A stretch of DNA of 64,000 nt from Argonema antarcticum A004/B2 (GTDB lineage: Bacteria > Cyanobacteriota > Cyanobacteriia > Cyanobacteriales > Aerosakkonemataceae), in the NCBI RefSeq assembly GCF_023333585.1, contig NZ_JAIQZN010000005.1:1-64000 (forward strand), read 5' to 3'. The position numbers and the translations under genes are program-made. The notes under the pieces are model-generated. The model saw only the letters and a list, made by a program, of their open reading frames with translations, was not told the origin of the DNA and ran no database searches. Shown in pieces: positions 12,056-30,147 of this stretch (position 1 is the first letter of the stretch; each line of letters opens with the position of its first letter).

Positions 12056-14200
12056 CTACTTAGACTGCTTAGCGAGATGCTCTAGTAGCATTCTGTGGAT
12101 AAAAATATAACCACCTCCTACTTTTTGTAAGAAAAGATGATCGGTAGCATAGTTGAGAAATCGAGAAAGGTTCCAGGGGAAAAAACCTTTTAAGTAAAGA
12201 CTCAAACGTAAAGTAAAATGTTGTACACATGCAGTGCTAGCTGAATTAAACAGACCACCAACTAGACCAAATGCAACTCCATAAAGAAGTGAATAAATCA
12301 GACCAATATTGATAACAGAATTAGGTACAGAGCCAAAATACGCTTTGCCAATCAATCCTCCTGTAATTCCTCCTATAAATAGTCCTATCAATCCGGCGAT
12401 TAATCCCATCAGACTAGCATTTGTCGCCGATCTCCAAATTCCTTGGTTAGGAATTGCTTTAATCTCTATATTTGAACCTTTCAAACTATTGATTACACCT
12501 AACACTATACCAAAAGATAAAGCAAAAGTAAAGCTAGAAATTATTGCAAATGATACTCTATGTTCTGGGGTCAAAACCAGGTTATCACCTAAACTATGCT
12601 GTATGGACTTGTCAGACATTAAAAATACACTTCTTAATCCCATAAGCAAGGTAAAAACTAGAGAAAATAATAAAGCTCTAGGCACTGTAGAACTACTAAT
12701 TAGGTGTTGAATAATCCCTTTCCAAGAAAAACTTAACGTTTCAACTGCCTCAATATTTACTCTACTTAATCCTAATATTAAAGTACCAAGTAATGTACCC
12801 GTCAATGCACCTACAGGAACCCAAAACAACCCATCAGTAAGCTTCCAAGCTAGTACATTATTCTGGACAACCAACCCTCCCACTAATCCTAGACTTAAGC
12901 ATCCTGCAATGCCTCCGACTAGACCACTAATCGATAGTAATTTAACTTTATAAGCAATGATTAGCTTTCTATTTCCTAAGTACGTGGGCTGAAGTTGTTC
13001 AATTAAAAATATTGTCTGAGATTCTTGGGACATTCTCAAAGCTAAATTGGTTAGCCAACCCATAAACTTCTCTTTCGAGTATTTAGGCTCGACTACTCTC
13101 CAACGCCTCAACATCTGCTTAATATAAGCATTAAACAACTTTTGATGATACTCTTCTACTGAACTTGCTTCAATCCGTTCTTTACTAGATTCATCTTGAT
13201 ATGCCAAACTCATAACGCTGAGCATTAGCGGAGATTTAGCTAATTCTTGTAGTATTATGTCTTTTTGAAAAAGAGTTCTAAGTGTTTTGAGTTGATTACC
13301 AGCTTTACTAAAGTATTGATCAACTTGCTCAATAGATAGAGGCTGAAGGTAAATTGCGCTTTGCAGATTTAAACGATTGGAGAGTACTTTATAATCCTTC
13401 AATCGGCTACAAACAACCATTTCAGTCTGTCCATACTGTTGCATGAATTGATTGATAGCCTGAACGCACTCCTCTCGGTAATCAACTTTTACTTCATCTA
13501 AACCATCAAGCAAGAGAAGTAACCTTTGATTTGTAATCCATTTCTTACCAAGCTTTCTAGAAACCTGATATTTACTATCAAGCTCTCCAATCAGCCAATT
13601 AGTAATTGTTTGTCGCTTATAAATCCAAGACGATAAATTAAATACTACCGGAATGGGATAGTTTAAATCTTCTTCAGCACGAGTGATTAAATCTTTTGTT
13701 AGCCTTAAAAGAGTTATTGTTTTTCCTGCTCCTGGTTCTCCTAAAATAAGTAAGGTTCGTCCCTCTCCCATCTCAAAAAATACATCATAAATATCCCTAT
13801 CGTCAAGTGGAGTTTTTCTTGATTCATCAGGTAGAGCTTGAAAACTGTTGAAAGGATCTTTCACTGCATCTAATCGCTCTTCTAACCTAAGTTCAATCAG
13901 CGCTTGGTTGTATAGGGACTTTTCCAGTACCCCTTGAATCCAATATTTATTGACTTTATTTAGTAAAACTTTTTGAAATCTATAGTCTAGATTGTCTGGA
14001 GGCTGCACTGGGCTAGCTGGTAACTGTCCTCGCAGAATAGGAGGACGGTCATAGACTGTCAGGTTTACCACTTGTCCACTAACAACAGTACTATTGACTG
14101 AGTGACCGATTGCTTGATTACGATCTCCCTTCAATTCTTGCTGAGTTTGAAGTGATGGGTCGGAAGCATCAGAAGGCTGAGAAGAGAGCGAGCCAGACAT
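12056..14200 (-). CDS. NACHT-family NTPase with C-terminal multi-pass membrane domain
   Basis: About 714 residues from the ATG at 14200 (MSGSLSSQ; the frame runs open to 14245). N-terminal 20-50 has short beta motifs (NQAIG, VVSGQVV) resembling those in the nearby CHAT protein. A NACHT ATPase follows: Walker A GEPGAGKT at 154-161, Walker B-like LLLLLDGLDEV near 230, and a helical NACHT C-terminal region (HQKLFNAYIKQMLRRW). Residues about 430-690 contain many glycine-rich hydrophobic helices. In bacteria, NACHT proteins of this kind act as STAND-type sensors in antiphage defence, with the effector at one end. Here the likely effector is the membrane domain. The short gap to the Nif11 gene suggests cotranscription. 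Confidence 0.88.
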   Translation of the reverse strand: MSGSLSSQPSDASDPSLQTQQELKGDRNQAIGHSVNSTVVSGQVVNLTVYDRPPILRGQLPASPVQPPDNLDYRFQKVLLNKVNKYWIQGVLEKSLYNQALIELRLEERLDAVKDPFNSFQALPDESRKTPLDDRDIYDVFFEMGEGRTLLILGEPGAGKTITLLRLTKDLITRAEEDLNYPIPVVFNLSSWIYKRQTITNWLIGELDSKYQVSRKLGKKWITNQRLLLLLDGLDEVKVDYREECVQAINQFMQQYGQTEMVVCSRLKDYKVLSNRLNLQSAIYLQPLSIEQVDQYFSKAGNQLKTLRTLFQKDIILQELAKSPLMLSVMSLAYQDESSKERIEASSVEEYHQKLFNAYIKQMLRRWRVVEPKYSKEKFMGWLTNLALRMSQESQTIFLIEQLQPTYLGNRKLIIAYKVKLLSISGLVGGIAGCLSLGLVGGLVVQNNVLAWKLTDGLFWVPVGALTGTLLGTLILGLSRVNIEAVETLSFSWKGIIQHLISSSTVPRALLFSLVFTLLMGLRSVFLMSDKSIQHSLGDNLVLTPEHRVSFAIISSFTFALSFGIVLGVINSLKGSNIEIKAIPNQGIWRSATNASLMGLIAGLIGLFIGGITGGLIGKAYFGSVPNSVINIGLIYSLLYGVAFGLVGGLFNSASTACVQHFTLRLSLYLKGFFPWNLSRFLNYATDHLFLQKVGGGYIFIHRMLLEHLAKQSK

Positions 14201-14245
14201 ATAGTTAATTGTTAATTTGGTACAGATTAAGGAAGATACATACAA

Positions 14246-22708: not shown

Positions 22709-23638
22709 TCACTCTCCCAAATCAAACTTGGCTGGGTTTTGCTTGACAGTACTAATAACGCTGATTTTCTGTAAGAATTCTTGCGTTAACTGCGTGAAAG
22801 CTTTACTACCAGGCGATTGAGGATTGGATAGCACAACAGGCATGAAAGTGTCAACTGCTTTGGAGACACTAACATCAACTGGGATGCGAGTTTTGAATAA
22901 TTTTGTAGCGCTGTAATCTTCATTAACTCGCCGCATCACCTGCTGGTAATACCTTCCCGTCAGCAGACTACCTGACATTGTGAAGACAATTCCCAGCAAC
23001 TGAATATTAACTGGATCGTCTTTATGAATCTCTCTTTGTTGAGCTAGCCGTCTTTCTAGCAATTGAATACCAATGACGGATAAAGGTTCTGGCTTAGCGG
23101 GTAATATATAAAAATCGCTAGCCAGAAGACCGCTACGAGTTAAGAGATTATAACCGGGCGCACAATCAAGGATGATAAAATCATAGTCTTTAATGACCGG
23201 GCTTAAAATATGTTGTACCAGTCTTCTTTCAAAGCGAATCCAAATTTGTTCAAAGTTGGGCTGACCTCCTTTAATGGCTTTTTCATAGAGCATTTCAGAT
23301 ACCAAAAATTCATCATAGAGGTCAAGATCTCCTGGCAATAAATCTAGATCCTTCAGCGAACAGACGTAGGGGCAAATTACATCCTGAATGGGTATTGTTA
23401 GCTTAATATCCGGTTTAATTGCCTTGTTTACCAAATGTCTCAGTGTCCGTTTGTCTCTGCGGCGTTTGGAAAAGTCTTGCGGAGACATCAAACTCAGAGT
23501 CGCACTGATTTGATTGTCTAAATCGACCACCAAAACCCGCTTACCAAAATCTTTCACCAAACTAGCGGCCAAGTTTACGGTGAGGGTCGTCTTACCGACG
23601 CCGCCTTTCATGTTGGCAGTTGAAATGATATAACCCAT
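22709..23638 (-). CDS. ParA-family partition ATPase
   Basis: A 309-residue ParA/MinD-class ATPase. The deviant Walker A KGGVGKTT is at residues 11-18 (signature Lys11), VLVVDLDNQISATLSL at about 35-50 is the A' motif, and DFIILDCAPGYNLLTRS is Walker B with its Asp. In the family, ATP-dependent DNA binding and dimerisation move or position DNA or protein cargo. No parB gene or obvious parS is next to it. Instead it is the last gene of the minus-strand set with the nuclease-FtsK fusion 187 nt upstream. This suggests it serves that system rather than replicon partition. A separate promoter in the 187-nt gap is possible. Confidence 0.9.
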   Translation of the reverse strand: MGYIISTANMKGGVGKTTLTVNLAASLVKDFGKRVLVVDLDNQISATLSLMSPQDFSKRRRDKRTLRHLVNKAIKPDIKLTIPIQDVICPYVCSLKDLDLLPGDLDLYDEFLVSEMLYEKAIKGGQPNFEQIWIRFERRLVQHILSPVIKDYDFIILDCAPGYNLLTRSGLLASDFYILPAKPEPLSVIGIQLLERRLAQQREIHKDDPVNIQLLGIVFTMSGSLLTGRYYQQVMRRVNEDYSATKLFKTRIPVDVSVSKAVDTFMPVVLSNPQSPGSKAFTQLTQEFLQKISVISTVKQNPAKFDLGE

Positions 23639-23825
23639 TCGTTCAGTCCTCTCAAGAATGACGCCCTACTTAGCAAAGTCGATCTGGATACCATAGCGAT
23701 TCTAAAATGGAAACGCTTAATTAAATTTAATATTTTTAGACAAAAGGCAAAAGGGCGTTAGCTCCTAAAATATTCCTACGGAGGTAGACGAATCGTCTGA
23801 CGATGCCTTCTGTGGCAGGTGAATG

Positions 23826-26420
23826 CTAGCTTTGGGGCAACTCGATAATTGTAGCCAACAAGCTTTGTAATCGGTGCAGATGCGATCCCGCTTGGTAGAG
23901 TAAATCACCTTTACCCAGTAGGTAGGCAGCTGCTTTTCGATCGCCACCTAGCACAATAATCGAGTCTGCCTCACTGGCGGTACGCAATGCAACCCTTCCT
24001 GGTAAGTTAGAGCGGATTAAGGGGGTGACAACTCTGGCTTCTGGACGTTGGGTGGCCACAATCAGGTGTATGCCAGCTGCTCGAGCCATAGCGCCTAGCC
24101 GTTTGATGCTCGATTCTAGCGCATTGCGAATTTCTTTTTCCGCCATAAAGTCAGCATATTCATCGAAAATGCAGACAATGCGGGGTAGGGGTTTGGTTGC
24201 TTTTTGATTGTAAGCGCTGATATCGGCACACCCAGCAGCTTCAAAGAGCTGGTAACGCTGCTCCATTTCTGCTACTAAGTCAGTCATGAGGGAGATCGCG
24301 CGATCGCTATCTTTAACCACGGGTGCATACAGCGACGGTATCCCCTCAAATTCTGGGAAAGTTACCCGCTTGGGATCGACGAGGGCAATTTTCAGATGCT
24401 TGGGGGAGTGACGCCAGAGTAGACTGAGGAGAAGACTTCGCAGAAATTCGCTCTTACCGCTACCAGTCGTCCCACCAACTAAAAAGTGACAAGTATTCGG
24501 ATCGGATAAATCAGCTTCTAGTAATTGTCCGTCCAGATTCACCCCGATCGCAATTTTCACTGGTGCTGTTGAGGGCAATTGTTGACGCTGAATATAATCC
24601 TCAATTTTGGCTATTTGGCGATCGGATCGCGGTAGATCGACGCTGACATACCCAGCTTGCGGTGCAATCAGCGGCGGATTGGCTAATTCTAGTTGCACCT
24701 GTAGATCGGCAGATCTATTTAGTAGGGAGGCAACTCTTACTCCCGGATGAGGTTTGAGCCTAACTCGGATGAAAGCTGGCCCGATCGCTGCCCCTTGGTA
24801 ATCAACACTAATACCAAAAGACTTGAGGGTTGCTACTAACTTTTCTGCGATCGCATCTGCGTTAGGAGTAGGTAAAGGTTTTTTAGTCGCTTCAGGCTTC
24901 TTTTTTTCAGCTTGTGGAGTAATTACTACTTTCTCAGATGATGTAGATTGGCTGCTATCAACAACAAAAAAAGACTGACACTTTTCCTGCTGTGGACAAA
25001 TATCGCAAAGGTGCGGTTGGGGTGTTGGTGGCGGCGGATTGGGATGAGGCGGTTCCCATTTCAGCCATTCCCGCATTTGCTGTAATTTATGAGGAATCAC
25101 TTGATGTACTGTCTTTTCCAACTGTTCCCAAGAATAGCGATATTCTTTGAACTCTGGTAAAACGCAGTAAACTGCCGAATCAACAGGCACTTTTTTCTTT
25201 TCTTTAAGCATATAGCTATAGAGAGAAACCTGGGCTAATTGAGCGGAGGGATCGACAGGCTCATAAGTTTTATACTCTACCACACAGAGGCGCTTTTGCT
25301 CAAAATCGAAGACTAAACTATCAAGTTTTCCGATTAACCTTTGCTGCGTACCATCTGGCAAAGTGAAGTTATGCTCAAGGCTGAATTCTCCAGTAACCAA
25401 AGTGCGGGAAATCACAGCATCCGCACGACAATCGCGTCTATTTTTAATAAGCAATTCAGTCCAGTGGCGAATCAATCTAGTTAATCCCTGCCAGATTTGA
25501 TGCAACGCCGCCGCTTGATTTGAGTCTTGTTGAATAGCTGATTGTAGATAAGGGAAAAATGCTAGTTGATAAAATAGCTGTTGCATTTGAGTTGCGATCG
25601 CATCCACTTTCAACTGCTCAACTGGCGGCTCAAACAAAGCTTGAAATTGCGGTTCTTTCTTAGCTATACCAATAAAATTTTCTGCTAATTTATGAAATAC
25701 AGTGCCAATTCCCTTGATGCGATCATCTGGCACAAACAAAGTTTTCCCATCAAAATGATGGTGCAAATAAAATAGACGCGGACATTCAAAAGCTACTCTG
25801 ACATTAGTTACGCTAAAGCTAGTTTGTTCGGATTTTTCATTTCGCGGCATTGATGACATATCCTCTAAATTAGAATTATTTTTGTTAAGATTTTTTAATA
25901 AATGGCGATGTACGTGAGCCAGATAAACTGGATCGAATTTAGCATATTTTAACTGTTTCTCGGTTAAAGGTCGCCGTCCCCAATCGCTTCCTTGTTCCTC
26001 TGAGTCTACATTGCTAAATTGGCAAAGTTCTGCTGCTAAAGTTTTGAGTTTTAGGTTGGAAACTGAAAGGCGATCTTTGGTTATCTTCCTCGCCATCTTC
26101 AAGGTACAAGTAACATTCTGTGCTTTGCTTCCACCTAGAAACCTCAGATCGAAGCTGGCGTTGTGAAAAACCTTCTCTATTTGGGGATTTACCATGATTT
26201 GATTAACAAAATATGCTACCAAATCAGACTTATCCAATACGTCTAGAATATAAGCGCGATCGCCATTAAGATTCTTCGGATCTGCCAACACTTGAATCAA
26301 AGATAATCTGGGATAAGCTGTATCCCAGTCAGCAACTTCTGTATCTGCCCAAAGTATTTTAGCAGATGATAATTTGGTGATAAGTGCTATTATTGTAGCT
26401 GATTCTGTTATATATGGCAT
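23826..26420 (-). CDS. Three-part DNA-processing protein: RNase D-like exonuclease + Cas4-like nuclease + FtsK/HerA-type motor
   Basis: An 864-residue fusion with three recognisable enzymes. (1) Residues 1-180: a DEDDy 3'-5' exonuclease of RNase D type, with Asp26/Glu28 (DTE), Asp91 (HNASFD), and Tyr159/Asp163 (YAKFD). (2) Residues about 200-485: a Cas4/AddB-like PD-(D/E)XK nuclease, with His243 in GTVFHKLAE, Asp367 in GKLDSL, Glu382-x-Lys384 in VEYKTYE, and four cysteines for a probable 4Fe-4S cluster (Cys213, Cys472, Cys475, Cys481). (3) Residues about 525-864: an FtsK motor, with Walker A GTTGSGKS (650-657) and Walker B IVCIFDEYAD (748-757). All catalytic residues are present. It starts 6 nt after the AAA+ gene stop, so the two are translationally close. 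I know of no characterised protein with this domain order. DNA translocation coupled to degradation is my inference. Confidence 0.9.
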   Translation of the reverse strand: MPYITESATIIALITKLSSAKILWADTEVADWDTAYPRLSLIQVLADPKNLNGDRAYILDVLDKSDLVAYFVNQIMVNPQIEKVFHNASFDLRFLGGSKAQNVTCTLKMARKITKDRLSVSNLKLKTLAAELCQFSNVDSEEQGSDWGRRPLTEKQLKYAKFDPVYLAHVHRHLLKNLNKNNSNLEDMSSMPRNEKSEQTSFSVTNVRVAFECPRLFYLHHHFDGKTLFVPDDRIKGIGTVFHKLAENFIGIAKKEPQFQALFEPPVEQLKVDAIATQMQQLFYQLAFFPYLQSAIQQDSNQAAALHQIWQGLTRLIRHWTELLIKNRRDCRADAVISRTLVTGEFSLEHNFTLPDGTQQRLIGKLDSLVFDFEQKRLCVVEYKTYEPVDPSAQLAQVSLYSYMLKEKKKVPVDSAVYCVLPEFKEYRYSWEQLEKTVHQVIPHKLQQMREWLKWEPPHPNPPPPTPQPHLCDICPQQEKCQSFFVVDSSQSTSSEKVVITPQAEKKKPEATKKPLPTPNADAIAEKLVATLKSFGISVDYQGAAIGPAFIRVRLKPHPGVRVASLLNRSADLQVQLELANPPLIAPQAGYVSVDLPRSDRQIAKIEDYIQRQQLPSTAPVKIAIGVNLDGQLLEADLSDPNTCHFLVGGTTGSGKSEFLRSLLLSLLWRHSPKHLKIALVDPKRVTFPEFEGIPSLYAPVVKDSDRAISLMTDLVAEMEQRYQLFEAAGCADISAYNQKATKPLPRIVCIFDEYADFMAEKEIRNALESSIKRLGAMARAAGIHLIVATQRPEARVVTPLIRSNLPGRVALRTASEADSIIVLGGDRKAAAYLLGKGDLLYQAGSHLHRLQSLLATIIELPQS

Positions 26421-26426
26421 TGGCTA

Positions 26427-28463
26427 CTAAACTTTGGGTACAAAGCAGACTAAATGGTCGTTTGGTGGATCGCTAGGATTTACAAGCTGAATTTTATTTT
26501 CCTTAATTAGCTGCTGAATTAATTGCTCAACTTGAGTTTTATTTACATCGAAAAATTTACCGATCGCATTCTTATTTAAAGTATTCTTACTCAAATATCC
26601 TTGGGTTTGAACCACATTAAGCAAAAACTCTCTAACATCCTTAAAATCGAGATTTTGATCTGTTGAAATGTCTGTTTTTTGCACAATGCCTAACTCCTTC
26701 AATAAACTACAATTATTCAAAATTTCCGCATCACGAATTAGTGCTTCTAATTCTTTTAAACTGACGGTTTTGCCAGCGACTACTAATTCATTGGCAAGTG
26801 CAGAATTAACCAAACTGTGATATGCCGCTAAGTAGTGAACAGAGGATAGAGTTGCCTTAATGTGGCGATGTTGAGAAGCCGTGAAAATTTGTTGATATAT
26901 TTGGTATCCAGCAAGTCTTGCGTTCCCTACGGTAACAGCACGAATCAGGTACAGATTTTCACAAGCATTTTGTTGAATCACTTTCTGGCAAGCATTCATC
27001 AGATGGACAAAGCTATTCATGCTGGGGTCTTCTGTCCAGACTATTCCTATCCGTTTTTGTTGACCGGGTTGTTGATAACTGAGTGAATAACTGGCGTACT
27101 TTCCGCTTAATAGTTTAGGTTTAATTCCCTGAAATTGTAAGGCAGCTAATGCTTCTGCCAACATCCGAATTAGTTCCGGTACTGCTAAAAGGGTAATTTT
27201 GATAATTTTTACCTGAGCTTTTTTGTATTCATCTTGCCAGATTAATTTTAAAGCTGCTAAAACCTTGTCATCCTCACCTTTACCGCCACCATTATTATTT
27301 TTATCAATGATTCCTTTTTTGTATGTCTGAAATATCTGCTGCCCCAGCATCAGTACATTGCGGGGTAGAGCTTTTTTACCTGGAAACTCTTTTTCTAGAT
27401 CCTCTTTAGTTACTGGGTAGATGGTAGAATTAGGTTTAGGCCGAGCTTCCTCGTGCAAGGGAGCGAGGCGAGTAGCTAAAAGAGCTTCGGCTTCATCCAA
27501 CGTAATGCGTTTCAGAGGAATCTTGATAGTAATTCTATGCAAATCAGCAGGCTGAACTCGTTTATAATTGTCATTCCACGTACTCGTAATGACGCTGATG
27601 ATAATTAATAATCCTTGCCAATTGGCATTATAAATCGCCGAAGTAACACTAAATAAAGCTTGTATATCGATAGCTCCATCTAAACGGGCTATACTATCTA
27701 TATTATCAAAACATAATACGATCGGCTGAGTTTGGGCAGATATTTTGCTAAAGTTACCTAAGATACCACGCGCCTTTTCTTCACTATCAATAGAATTTTT
27801 GACTTGTAACTTCTTGAGGTCTTCCTCATCTAAGTCATCTCCTTTCAACCACTCACAAGCTAAAGAGCTTAACTCTGGATTAGTTAGGTTATAAAGAACG
27901 CCAAAAAATTCATTAGCATTGTAAAAACCTTTAGTGCCAATGGTTTTTCGGAGGATATCAATAAAAAGTTGGCGATCGGCCCTAGCATCATCTTTGGGTT
28001 TGACAAAAAAGTTTTTTACCTTATCAATCAAATTCTTTTGCTCGCTTGGTAAAGCATCTTCGATAGCAGAAAAGCAACTTTTGAGCCACAGAATTAATTG
28101 GGAATCTGTTTGTCCTGCTGGAGCATTAACCAGGCTATCGACTGTGTAGCGTAAGATATGCCGCCAGATATAGTCACTTTGGGGAAATGGTTCAATATAA
28201 GCAAAAAAAGCTTGATTATTAAGTGTTTCCTTGAGCCGTCCGAGAAAGTGAGTTTTCCCAGATCCGGCGTCACCGTAGAGAATAAGGGTGCGAGTTTCAC
28301 GATCTTGGGTAACGTCATCCAAAGCTTTTTTGATTTGCCTAAGTGGCTCTTGATGAATTGATTCAATAGTAGGTGCTGGCTTTGGCTTTTCCCAAAAATT
28401 ACGGGCAGCAAAATTGTCAAATGGGTTAAGCGATTGTTTAATAACATCATCGATTGTTGCCAT
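26427..28463 (-). CDS. AAA+ ATPase with C-terminal winged-helix-like region (ORC/STAND-like)
   Basis: A 678-residue P-loop ATPase. An N-terminal lead (NPFDNFAARNFWEKP) precedes the core with Walker A GDAGSGKT at 64-71 and Walker B VLCFDNIDS at 249-257. TSTWNDNYKRV near 295 looks like sensor 1, and LKRITLDEAEALLATRL (about 320) a lid helix. Residues about 410-590 include a region with a restriction-endonuclease-like strand pattern (IGIVWTEDP), without clear catalytic residues. The last 80 residues resemble a winged helix (FDVNKTQVEQLIQQLIKENKIQLV). ORC/Cdc6-like ATPases load other machines onto DNA. Here the obvious client is the FtsK-nuclease protein encoded 6 nt downstream. AGAGGGA ahead of the ATG at 28463 supports the start. 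Confidence 0.85.
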   Translation of the reverse strand: MATIDDVIKQSLNPFDNFAARNFWEKPKPAPTIESIHQEPLRQIKKALDDVTQDRETRTLILYGDAGSGKTHFLGRLKETLNNQAFFAYIEPFPQSDYIWRHILRYTVDSLVNAPAGQTDSQLILWLKSCFSAIEDALPSEQKNLIDKVKNFFVKPKDDARADRQLFIDILRKTIGTKGFYNANEFFGVLYNLTNPELSSLACEWLKGDDLDEEDLKKLQVKNSIDSEEKARGILGNFSKISAQTQPIVLCFDNIDSIARLDGAIDIQALFSVTSAIYNANWQGLLIIISVITSTWNDNYKRVQPADLHRITIKIPLKRITLDEAEALLATRLAPLHEEARPKPNSTIYPVTKEDLEKEFPGKKALPRNVLMLGQQIFQTYKKGIIDKNNNGGGKGEDDKVLAALKLIWQDEYKKAQVKIIKITLLAVPELIRMLAEALAALQFQGIKPKLLSGKYASYSLSYQQPGQQKRIGIVWTEDPSMNSFVHLMNACQKVIQQNACENLYLIRAVTVGNARLAGYQIYQQIFTASQHRHIKATLSSVHYLAAYHSLVNSALANELVVAGKTVSLKELEALIRDAEILNNCSLLKELGIVQKTDISTDQNLDFKDVREFLLNVVQTQGYLSKNTLNKNAIGKFFDVNKTQVEQLIQQLIKENKIQLVNPSDPPNDHLVCFVPKV

Positions 28464-28514
28464 ACCTATCCCTCTCTTGTGCTGAAAGTTAACCTGCTGA
28501 ATATAGGGAAAATT

Positions 28515-29342
28515 TTAACTAACTGAAATGAAAAATAACCAACCACCGCTTGCTTGGGAAATTCCAGCTTCACGTTGTTCGGCTGTATAGTTACGAGGCT
28601 CTGCCAAGGTACTCAACTCAATCTGGTCGTTTTCTTCCAGACGATAAAGCGCCCAATCTAATTCTTCCCTAGACAGAGGCGGTTGTAACTTCTGCCGCAA
28701 GTGAAAAATTGGCAAATAATTTTCCGTTCCCAGTTCCCGATCTAAATCTCGAATTATCTGTAAAATCTGCTCATCGCTTGGCTTAGCTGTAGGTGTAGCT
28801 GGTGCTGGCGATACTACTTCAGAGTTTTCGCGGAGGCATTTTCGCAAAAAGCTCAGGTAATTTTTCAGTAAATCCAGACTAATGGTTGCAGAACCCTTGG
28901 GGTTGTACTCATCCCGCAAATACTCCAACCCTCGCTGAGTCAGCCATACCTCGGCTTTAGTCCGTTTGACTTTCCTTTCAGCTTCAATCAAGCCGCGATC
29001 GGCGAGGTTCTTTAATATTTCCGCTCTTTCAGCCGCTTTCACAACTGTAATTTCACTGGGTTTGATTTTTCCGGGACTTTTGCCTATTTTCTCCAGCACC
29101 TTTAGTTCTTTGTCTGCGATCGGCAGTTGAGAGGCGTCTATTTTCAGCAAGGCACGACCGGGCGGTAAAATTTTGACAGAAGCAATTTCGCGGGAGAAGT
29201 CTATCAATTCCCGTTCATCGCCCAAGTCTCGACAAATTTTGTCCTTGCCTTTAAAGTCTTTGAAGACGCCAGCAGAAAGGGATGACCGATAATTAGGACA
29301 ACCCAGCAACTTTAGGAGGAACTTCAGATCGTTAGTTTCCAT
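28515..29342 (-). CDS. Winged-helix DNA-binding protein, first gene of the nuclease-FtsK set
   Basis: A 275-residue soluble protein of no family I can name. Residues about 78-150 look like a winged helix: EKIGKSPGKIKPSEITVVKAAERAEILKNLADRGLIEAERK, followed by a wing and TQRGLEYLRDEY. A proline/alanine linker (about 180-190) leads to a second possible winged helix (about 193-245: LPIFHLRQKLQ, REELDWALYRLEENDQIEL). Two such domains suggest sequence-specific DNA binding, either as a regulator of the operon or a specificity subunit. AAGGTG precedes the ATG at 29342. The AAA+ gene starts 51 nt downstream of its stop. Confidence 0.8.
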   Translation of the reverse strand: METNDLKFLLKLLGCPNYRSSLSAGVFKDFKGKDKICRDLGDERELIDFSREIASVKILPPGRALLKIDASQLPIADKELKVLEKIGKSPGKIKPSEITVVKAAERAEILKNLADRGLIEAERKVKRTKAEVWLTQRGLEYLRDEYNPKGSATISLDLLKNYLSFLRKCLRENSEVVSPAPATPTAKPSDEQILQIIRDLDRELGTENYLPIFHLRQKLQPPLSREELDWALYRLEENDQIELSTLAEPRNYTAEQREAGISQASGGWLFFISVS

Positions 29343-29397: not shown

Positions 29398-30147
29398 TTA
29401 TTTACCAGCGAATATCTCGTACTGGCGATATATAGCATTCGCTTTCTTGACTATGAACTTAATATTATCATCTTCTAGCTCTTGTGTAACTATTTGTTTT
29501 AAAAGTTGACGCTTTCTGGAAGGGCCAGAATGAAATCCTTGCTGAATATGAACTTTTTGAACGTTTTGTTTGATATGTTCAAAAATACCAAAATTCGTAC
29601 CAAAACGGTGATTTATATTTTCAATTATCCTACCAAAATTATGGGTAACTTCATCAAATAAACCCACAAGGTAACGCTCTCTATACGGCATTATCCTAAT
29701 GTAAAAAGATATCCAGTTACTAAAATACTTTTCTAAAGGTATGTCTAATGCTGGATTCCTGTATGAATTTAAATCATTTATTTCTAAGTCCAAACACCTA
29801 AGAGAAACTACGGCATCCACAGGTTTTCTTATCAAAACTAAAGTTGGTATAGAAAGATGGACAGCGCGTATTATTTGAGCGGGAGCGTGTAAATGCGATG
29901 CCAATGCAACTGGACGAGTTTGGGCAGATTGAAACGCGCCTATAGAAAAACTATTTGCCGAACGTGGAAATCCTTCTATAACTAATTCAGTGTTTTTTCC
30001 TACTGCTTGAATTGGGTTTTTTCCAGCCAATTTTACTAAGGGAAAAAATAATTTCGGATGAAGGCTTAAAAAGGAACGTACCTCAAATTTTTGCTGAAAC
30101 AAATTTTTCTCTAAAGCACCCAGATCGTACATATTGAATGAGGTCAT
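29398..30147 (-). CDS. Sulfotransferase-like protein
   Basis: The 249-residue protein has the PAPS-dependent sulfotransferase P-loop variant EGFPRSANSFS (about residues 57-67), matching the 5'-phosphosulfate-binding loop. It also has the 3'-phosphate motif region IPTLVLIRKPVDAVVSLRC (about 105-123), typical of the family. Sulfotransferases transfer sulfate from PAPS to carbohydrates, lipids or proteins. Given the glycosyltransferase encoded divergently, the acceptor may be an exported polysaccharide, which is inference only. No membrane anchor is visible. It lies 55 nt downstream of the winged-helix gene's start, on the same strand but upstream of it in transcription, so it could share that operon's promoter. 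Confidence 0.8.
   Translation of the reverse strand: MTSFNMYDLGALEKNLFQQKFEVRSFLSLHPKLFFPLVKLAGKNPIQAVGKNTELVIEGFPRSANSFSIGAFQSAQTRPVALASHLHAPAQIIRAVHLSIPTLVLIRKPVDAVVSLRCLDLEINDLNSYRNPALDIPLEKYFSNWISFYIRIMPYRERYLVGLFDEVTHNFGRIIENINHRFGTNFGIFEHIKQNVQKVHIQQGFHSGPSRKRQLLKQIVTQELEDDNIKFIVKKANAIYRQYEIFAGK

Follow-up and report, generated by a model that had tools for sequence, protein, structure and literature searches.

Gene organization of the locus

We analysed a 64,000-nucleotide stretch of DNA from Argonema antarcticum A004/B2 (the window), in which a first-pass annotation had described a four-gene set for a winged-helix protein, an AAA+ ATPase, an exonuclease-nuclease-FtsK fusion and a ParA ATPase. 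The four open reading frames are indeed present on the minus strand and are separated by gaps of 187, 6 and 51 nt. We refer to the first three proteins as wh, AAA and fusion and to their genes together as the triad. The features of the locus are as follows (window positions):

28515-29342, minus strand: wh, 275 aa, protein with several winged helices, encoded by the first triad gene; its residues ~226-275 vary together with the type of AAA+
26427-28463, minus strand: AAA, 678 aa, ORC/Cdc6-type AAA+ protein (Pfam AAA_16; structure model)
27285-28463, minus strand: AAA+ core of AAA, residues 1-393 (structure matches to ORC/Cdc6/TnsC; motif counts)
26664-27275, minus strand: alpha/beta insert of AAA, residues ~397-600, read as inactive REase-like (secondary-structure order in the model and residue counts)
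26430-26651, minus strand: winged helix at the C-terminus of AAA, residues ~605-678 (model; alignments of the whole protein to ORC chains extend to residue 677)
23826-26420, minus strand: fusion, 864 aa, DEDDy exonuclease, Cas4-like nuclease, FtsK-alpha and FtsK motor
25887-26414, minus strand: DEDDy 3'-5' exonuclease domain of fusion (Pfam PF01612; D26, E28, D91, Y159, D163)
24975-25820, minus strand: PD-(D/E)XK nuclease of fusion, Cas4/AddB type (Pfam PF12705; Cas4 models; Cys 213, 472, 475, 481)
24042-24881, minus strand: FtsK-alpha and FtsK/SpoIIIE motor of fusion (Pfam PF17854, PF01580; FtsK crystal structure)
26427-28667, minus strand: exchangeable cassette, AAA with the C-terminal part of wh (swapped from species to species, flanks alike)
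22709-23638, minus strand: ParA, a common cyanobacterial ParA adjoining ileS, bystander outside the triad

Domain composition of the three proteins

The fusion protein carries the Pfam domains DNA_pol_A_exo1 (residues 3-178), PDDEXK_1 (201-482), FtsK_alpha (514-597) and FtsK_SpoIIIE (618-793) in this order, confirming that two different nucleases and an FtsK-type motor are combined in one protein. The nuclease part is also matched by the PADLOC Cas4 models, and the FtsK part matches an FtsK crystal structure (E 1e-64); no C-terminal gamma domain was seen after the motor. In the 81 loci compared, the active-site residues of the two nucleases and the motor do not vary, except for E382 and a few rows without the exonuclease. 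Within PDDEXK_1, residues H243, D367 and K384 are invariant and E382 is replaced by D in 6 of these rows, and the domain is predicted to be an active REase. The cysteines at positions 213, 472, 475 and 481 are invariant as well. An Fe-S cluster is a feature of the Cas4/AddB nuclease family, and by analogy these four cysteines likely hold such a cluster. The DEDDy exonuclease domain is missing from the fusion of L038, L130-L132 and a plasmid copy. L104:15544-16479 encodes a DEDDy exonuclease on its own that shares about 50-60% identity with the corresponding domain of the fusion; similar stand-alone frames of about 310 aa occur in many relatives and are common where a genome has no fusion.

AAA is recognized by Pfam as AAA_16, and its structure model (pLDDT 82.4, pTM 0.81) supports the earlier description of the protein as ORC-like: chains of ORC, Cdc6 and TnsC top the structure matches of residues 1-393, with Z scores of 11-13. 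The Walker A motif GxxxxGK[ST] is invariant in the 81 loci. At the Walker B position where most AAA+ proteins have a catalytic glutamate, 79 of the 81 loci have D-N/Q instead of D-E, and because of this replacement AAA may act more by binding ATP than by turning it over. The earlier statement that all catalytic motifs are intact thus applies to the nucleases and the FtsK motor and not to the Walker B motif of the AAA+ protein. The insert at residues 397-600 is not matched by Pfam; in the model it is an alpha/beta domain with an REase-like order of secondary-structure elements, and the model and residue counts place no catalytic D...(D/E)xK in it. From this order of secondary-structure elements we read it, tentatively, as a putative inactive REase-like domain.

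The wh protein has no significant Pfam match. In its model (pLDDT 78.7), residues 1-152 and residues 178-275 match winged-helix folds, and the model can be read as three winged-helix units. Of the domain assignments made earlier, Pfam supports those of ParA, of the exonuclease-nuclease-FtsK protein and of the AAA+ protein; for wh, our reading of the model suggests three winged helices where two had been counted.

Conservation and distribution of the triad

The comparison took in 20 related genomes and another 80 loci retained from scanning species genomes, every one of the 80 being from cyanobacteria. The order wh-AAA-fusion and the common strand are constant in 81 complete triads with distinct fusions, all of them cyanobacterial, and triads recur across filamentous cyanobacteria. 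Genes absent from a locus were mostly lost to contig ends; at L119 and L132, where flanking sequence is present, the fusion has neither wh nor AAA beside it. In a sample of 194 genomes from the phylum, with the nuclease of the fusion as a marker, the fusion was detected in 21 genomes, all belonging to the order of the window (21 of its 66 genomes). The AAA gene was present in all 21 of these genomes, compared to 5 of the order's 45 genomes without the fusion (Fisher p=7e-13). Two of these five (L164 and L165) have a decayed triad at the locus beside parA. In G096 and G137, two of the 21 fusion-positive genomes, AAA shares a contig with the fusion at a great distance from it. All three triad genes are present on the conjugative plasmid pPSE7367.01, where the fusion has no exonuclease domain.

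In the window's family and in many Nostocales the triad adjoins parA-ileS, which explains why the first-pass annotation took the four genes for a single operon. ParA of this family is found in 53 of 60 relatives, namely in 26 of 29 fusion-positive and 27 of 31 fusion-negative genomes (p=1). It lies beside ileS without a triad at L134, L136 and L137, and beside ileS with the triad elsewhere at L139 and L146. ParA is therefore a bystander that occurs independently of the triad, and the conserved unit consists of three genes instead of four: across genomes wh, AAA and fusion occur together in the same order, and ParA does not follow them. Because the triad often occupies this one chromosomal site beside parA-ileS, with no obvious defence island, it appears to be inherited largely vertically. 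In G001, which belongs to the same genus as the window, no match to the triad or to ParA was obtained at the cut-offs used, and its contigs end beside ileS and within a glycosyltransferase gene. A phage origin was considered and discarded, since no relative of AAA occurs in viral contigs and, among the phage records listed, only the FtsK part is matched.

Exchange of the end of wh together with AAA

Comparison of the window with its sister genome G002 gave amino acid identities of 99% for ParA, 97% for the fusion and 92% for wh, against 53% for AAA. The comparison was extended to 50 pairs of loci with fusion identities of 85% or more; these pairs are not independent of each other. The identity of the N-terminal part of AAA (AAA-N) is bimodal over the 50 pairs, with 27 pairs at 45-64% and 20 pairs at 80% or more. 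Residues 1-200 of wh and the fusion are no different in switched and unswitched pairs; residues 226-275 of wh are 62-67% identical in switched pairs versus 92-96% in unswitched pairs, and identity falls over all of AAA too. The breakpoints vary, and in the comparison with G006 AAA-N alone is strongly different. Faster amino acid evolution of AAA as a source of this divergence was rejected, since fourfold-degenerate sites have diverged too: in switched pairs they are 33-42% alike in AAA-N compared to 81-95% in the fusions of the same pairs. Between sister species the values are 35-40% for AAA and 95% for the fusion. The AAA segment has therefore been replaced and is not merely fast-evolving.

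Phylogenetic trees agree with replacement. In the AAA-N tree the window groups with relatives from Scytonema, Rhizonema, Brasilonema, Calothrix and Tolypothrix (support 100), and in the fusion tree with its own sister (support 99). AU tests on AAA-N rejected clades of the window with G002 (p=1e-4), of three Brasilonema (2e-53) and of three Calothrix (1.5e-5), and on the fusion data they rejected the window's AAA type as a clade; the groups were partly picked after the identities had been seen and the pairs are non-independent, so that these p-values are descriptive. Placed on the fusion tree, the AAA type of the window has to change 6 times; on the AAA tree a single change suffices. The end of wh together with AAA is thus an exchangeable cassette, which is a new observation of this analysis.

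Stand-alone wh-AAA-AAA arrays with no adjoining fusion were found at four loci:

L147:7131-12116: stand-alone wh-AAA-AAA array
L148:8235-13463: stand-alone wh-AAA-AAA array
L149:8098-13358: stand-alone wh-AAA-AAA array
L151:897-7446: stand-alone wh-AAA-AAA array

The nearest triad relative of the AAA copies in these arrays is often the AAA of G002 (up to 72% identity), and judged from this similarity cassettes may have been exchanged between arrays and triads in either direction. Such arrays could be systems in their own right, or they could serve as a store of alternative cassettes.

Relation to known and predicted systems

The set had been presented as undescribed. Systems of the same composition, without ParA, were already predicted in 2024 as 'HerA/FtsK capture systems' in a computational study that contains no experiments (Rakesh, Aravind and Krishnan, NAR 2024; PMC10853773). 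According to the passages of that paper available to us, the sets comprise an ORC/CDC6 ATPase with an inactive REase between its core and a wHTH, an active REase, HerA/FtsK and wHTH proteins; one set has FtsK-alpha, in some a 3'-5' exonuclease is fused to FtsK, and interception of invader DNA is proposed as their role. The same anti-invader prediction is repeated in a later paper (PMC12839542). The triad shares with these sets an ORC/Cdc6 AAA+ protein that has a domain between core and C-terminal wHTH, FtsK-alpha with FtsK, an active REase, a multi-wHTH protein and, for some of them, the exonuclease-FtsK combination. It differs from the sets in those passages in that both nucleases and the motor form one polypeptide and in that the nuclease is Cas4-like with four cysteines; exchange of a cassette is a feature of the triad that the passages do not mention. 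In the main text of the paper neither 'ParA' nor any word beginning with 'cyanobacter' occurs; its supplement may list identical cyanobacterial members. Our literature search found no named experimental system with this gene set.

Two known systems show partial similarity. SspFGH (PMC8092258) resembles the triad in its three genes, among them those for an ATPase and for a protein whose C-terminal end is FtsK-like; the alignment of SspH to the fusion is confined to the FtsK part (residues 517-852), SspF and SspG models are not among the matches listed for AAA or wh, and no sspBCD modification genes were noted among the neighbours in a general Pfam scan. DndFGH likewise has an FtsK/HerA motor with a nuclease and a multi-wHTH partner (DndG); it differs in its domain set, and the triad has no dnd genes alongside. 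The fusion has no match to the DndH/DptH family TIGR03237 (NCBIfam), and the search of the genomes for DptH gave zero matches anywhere, the control being silent as well.

Proposed function and alternative explanations

Taken together, the triad is best explained as a cyanobacterial ORC/Cdc6-coupled HerA/FtsK capture system that degrades the DNA of invaders, a reading to which we assign a probability of roughly 0.6; its role in defence is inferred. Since the DEDDy, Cas4-like and FtsK motifs are intact, a DNA-pumping motor and two nucleases are implied. In such a machine, wh and the ORC/Cdc6-type AAA+ protein would make up the part for recognition and loading on invader DNA, as suggested by their fold, gene pairing and joint exchange; within AAA, docking of DNA or of the fusion would fall to the REase-like insert and the C-terminal winged helix. 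Double-stranded DNA would then be pumped by the FtsK motor, cut and resected by the Cas4-like nuclease and trimmed at its 3' ends by the DEDDy exonuclease, resulting in destruction of both strands. ParA would play no part. Of this picture, the analysis itself shows the strict joint inheritance of fusion and AAA, the constant gene order and active sites, and the recurrent replacement of AAA and the end of wh beside an unchanged nuclease-motor. Two observations weigh against it: no mark distinguishing self from non-self was found in the locus, and the triad often sits at the parA-ileS site, outside any obvious defence island, with largely vertical inheritance.

Three other explanations were weighed against this one. 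The first-pass annotation had already favoured action against invaders over maintenance of an integrated element that uses ParA, and this preference holds on the gene content, the published prediction, the cassette exchange, the decayed copies and the copy on a conjugative plasmid, the use of ParA being the part that falls away. A maintenance or partition cassette, to which the position of ParA directly downstream of the triad in the window's family and many Nostocales had pointed, is very improbable given that ParA is independent of the triad and is unlinked where the triad lies elsewhere, and that no integrase or replication gene is present among the ten window neighbours scanned. AddAB and HerA-NurA are the basis for comparison in end resection, and the two nucleases and motor of the fusion resemble such enzymes. 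Together with retention of the triad at a conserved site in many Nostocales, this would agree with housekeeping repair or chromosome processing on host DNA ends; the patchy presence within the order, the decayed copies, the replacement of AAA+ by distant alleles and the conjugative-plasmid copy speak against that role, which we consider unlikely.

Slightly less probable still is that the triad is the restriction half of a phosphorothioate system and attacks DNA without a Dnd mark, as SspFGH does with SspBCD. The genome of the window does contain a dnd locus (L160:686-6663, contig C88) in which an HNH nuclease gene lies between dndB and dndC and a dndD-like gene is also present, dndC is present in 28 of 29 fusion-positive compared to 21 of 31 fusion-negative genomes among the 60 relatives (p=0.006), and the FtsK part of the fusion has SspH models as its best matches. 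The DptH search with the silent control also gave no DndH-type match in these 60 relatives. However, in a second, partly overlapping sample within the order dndC was found in 19 of 21 versus 37 of 45 genomes (p=0.48), genome G189 has a triad and no dndC, and in the window's own genome dnd and triad lie on separate contigs. Dependence of the triad on Dnd phosphorothioation is therefore not supported.

For the counter-invader machine, the cassette exchange bears on which part reads the target. Type I restriction-modification systems recombine their recognition part, HsdS, against a constant nuclease and motor. The triad resembles them in that the recognition part would be swapped and the nuclease-motor kept, and differs in having no methylase and in that the swapped part is an AAA+ protein with the end of a wHTH protein. 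The exchange points to the wh/AAA+ pair as the recognition part; replacement of this pair next to an unchanged nuclease and motor would be expected if the pair reads the target. The further reading that the end of wh with AAA determines specificity and is passed on horizontally, HsdS-like but built on an ORC/Cdc6 ATPase, with the arrays as a reservoir of alternative specificities, is put forward tentatively, at slightly below even odds. Exchange of a recognition gene would also fit kin-specific DNA uptake or chromosome processing.

With the counter-invader role, filamentous cyanobacteria would possess in the triad a widespread candidate barrier, apparently unstudied, to phages and to DNA transfer. 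Sister genomes with near-identical nuclease-motors and far-diverged AAA proteins are natural swaps that point to the likely recognition part. HerA/FtsK capture systems are predictions so far, and the swapped pairs are suited to a swap experiment.

Other genes near the locus

A gene at window positions 29398-30147, on the minus strand like wh, lies upstream of wh at a distance of 55 nt; its product has no significant Pfam match, and only some members of the window's family have it upstream of wh. The minus strand of the window also encodes, at 12056-14245 and about 5 kb from ileS, a 729-aa protein with a NACHT domain, a STAND-type ATPase. Many cyanobacteria, whether or not they have the triad, encode a ParA-type ATPase near the parA-ileS site that may be fused to a nuclease. 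Three of these proteins were tested (L134:6438-7832, L110:5231-6709 and L164:4978-6345), and a weak, repeated match to HSDR_N of type I restriction enzymes was obtained in their N-terminal part, which suggests this possible nuclease-ParA fusion. ParA-like ORFs of 450-510 aa are also present in L054, L059, L063, L104, L107 and L149.
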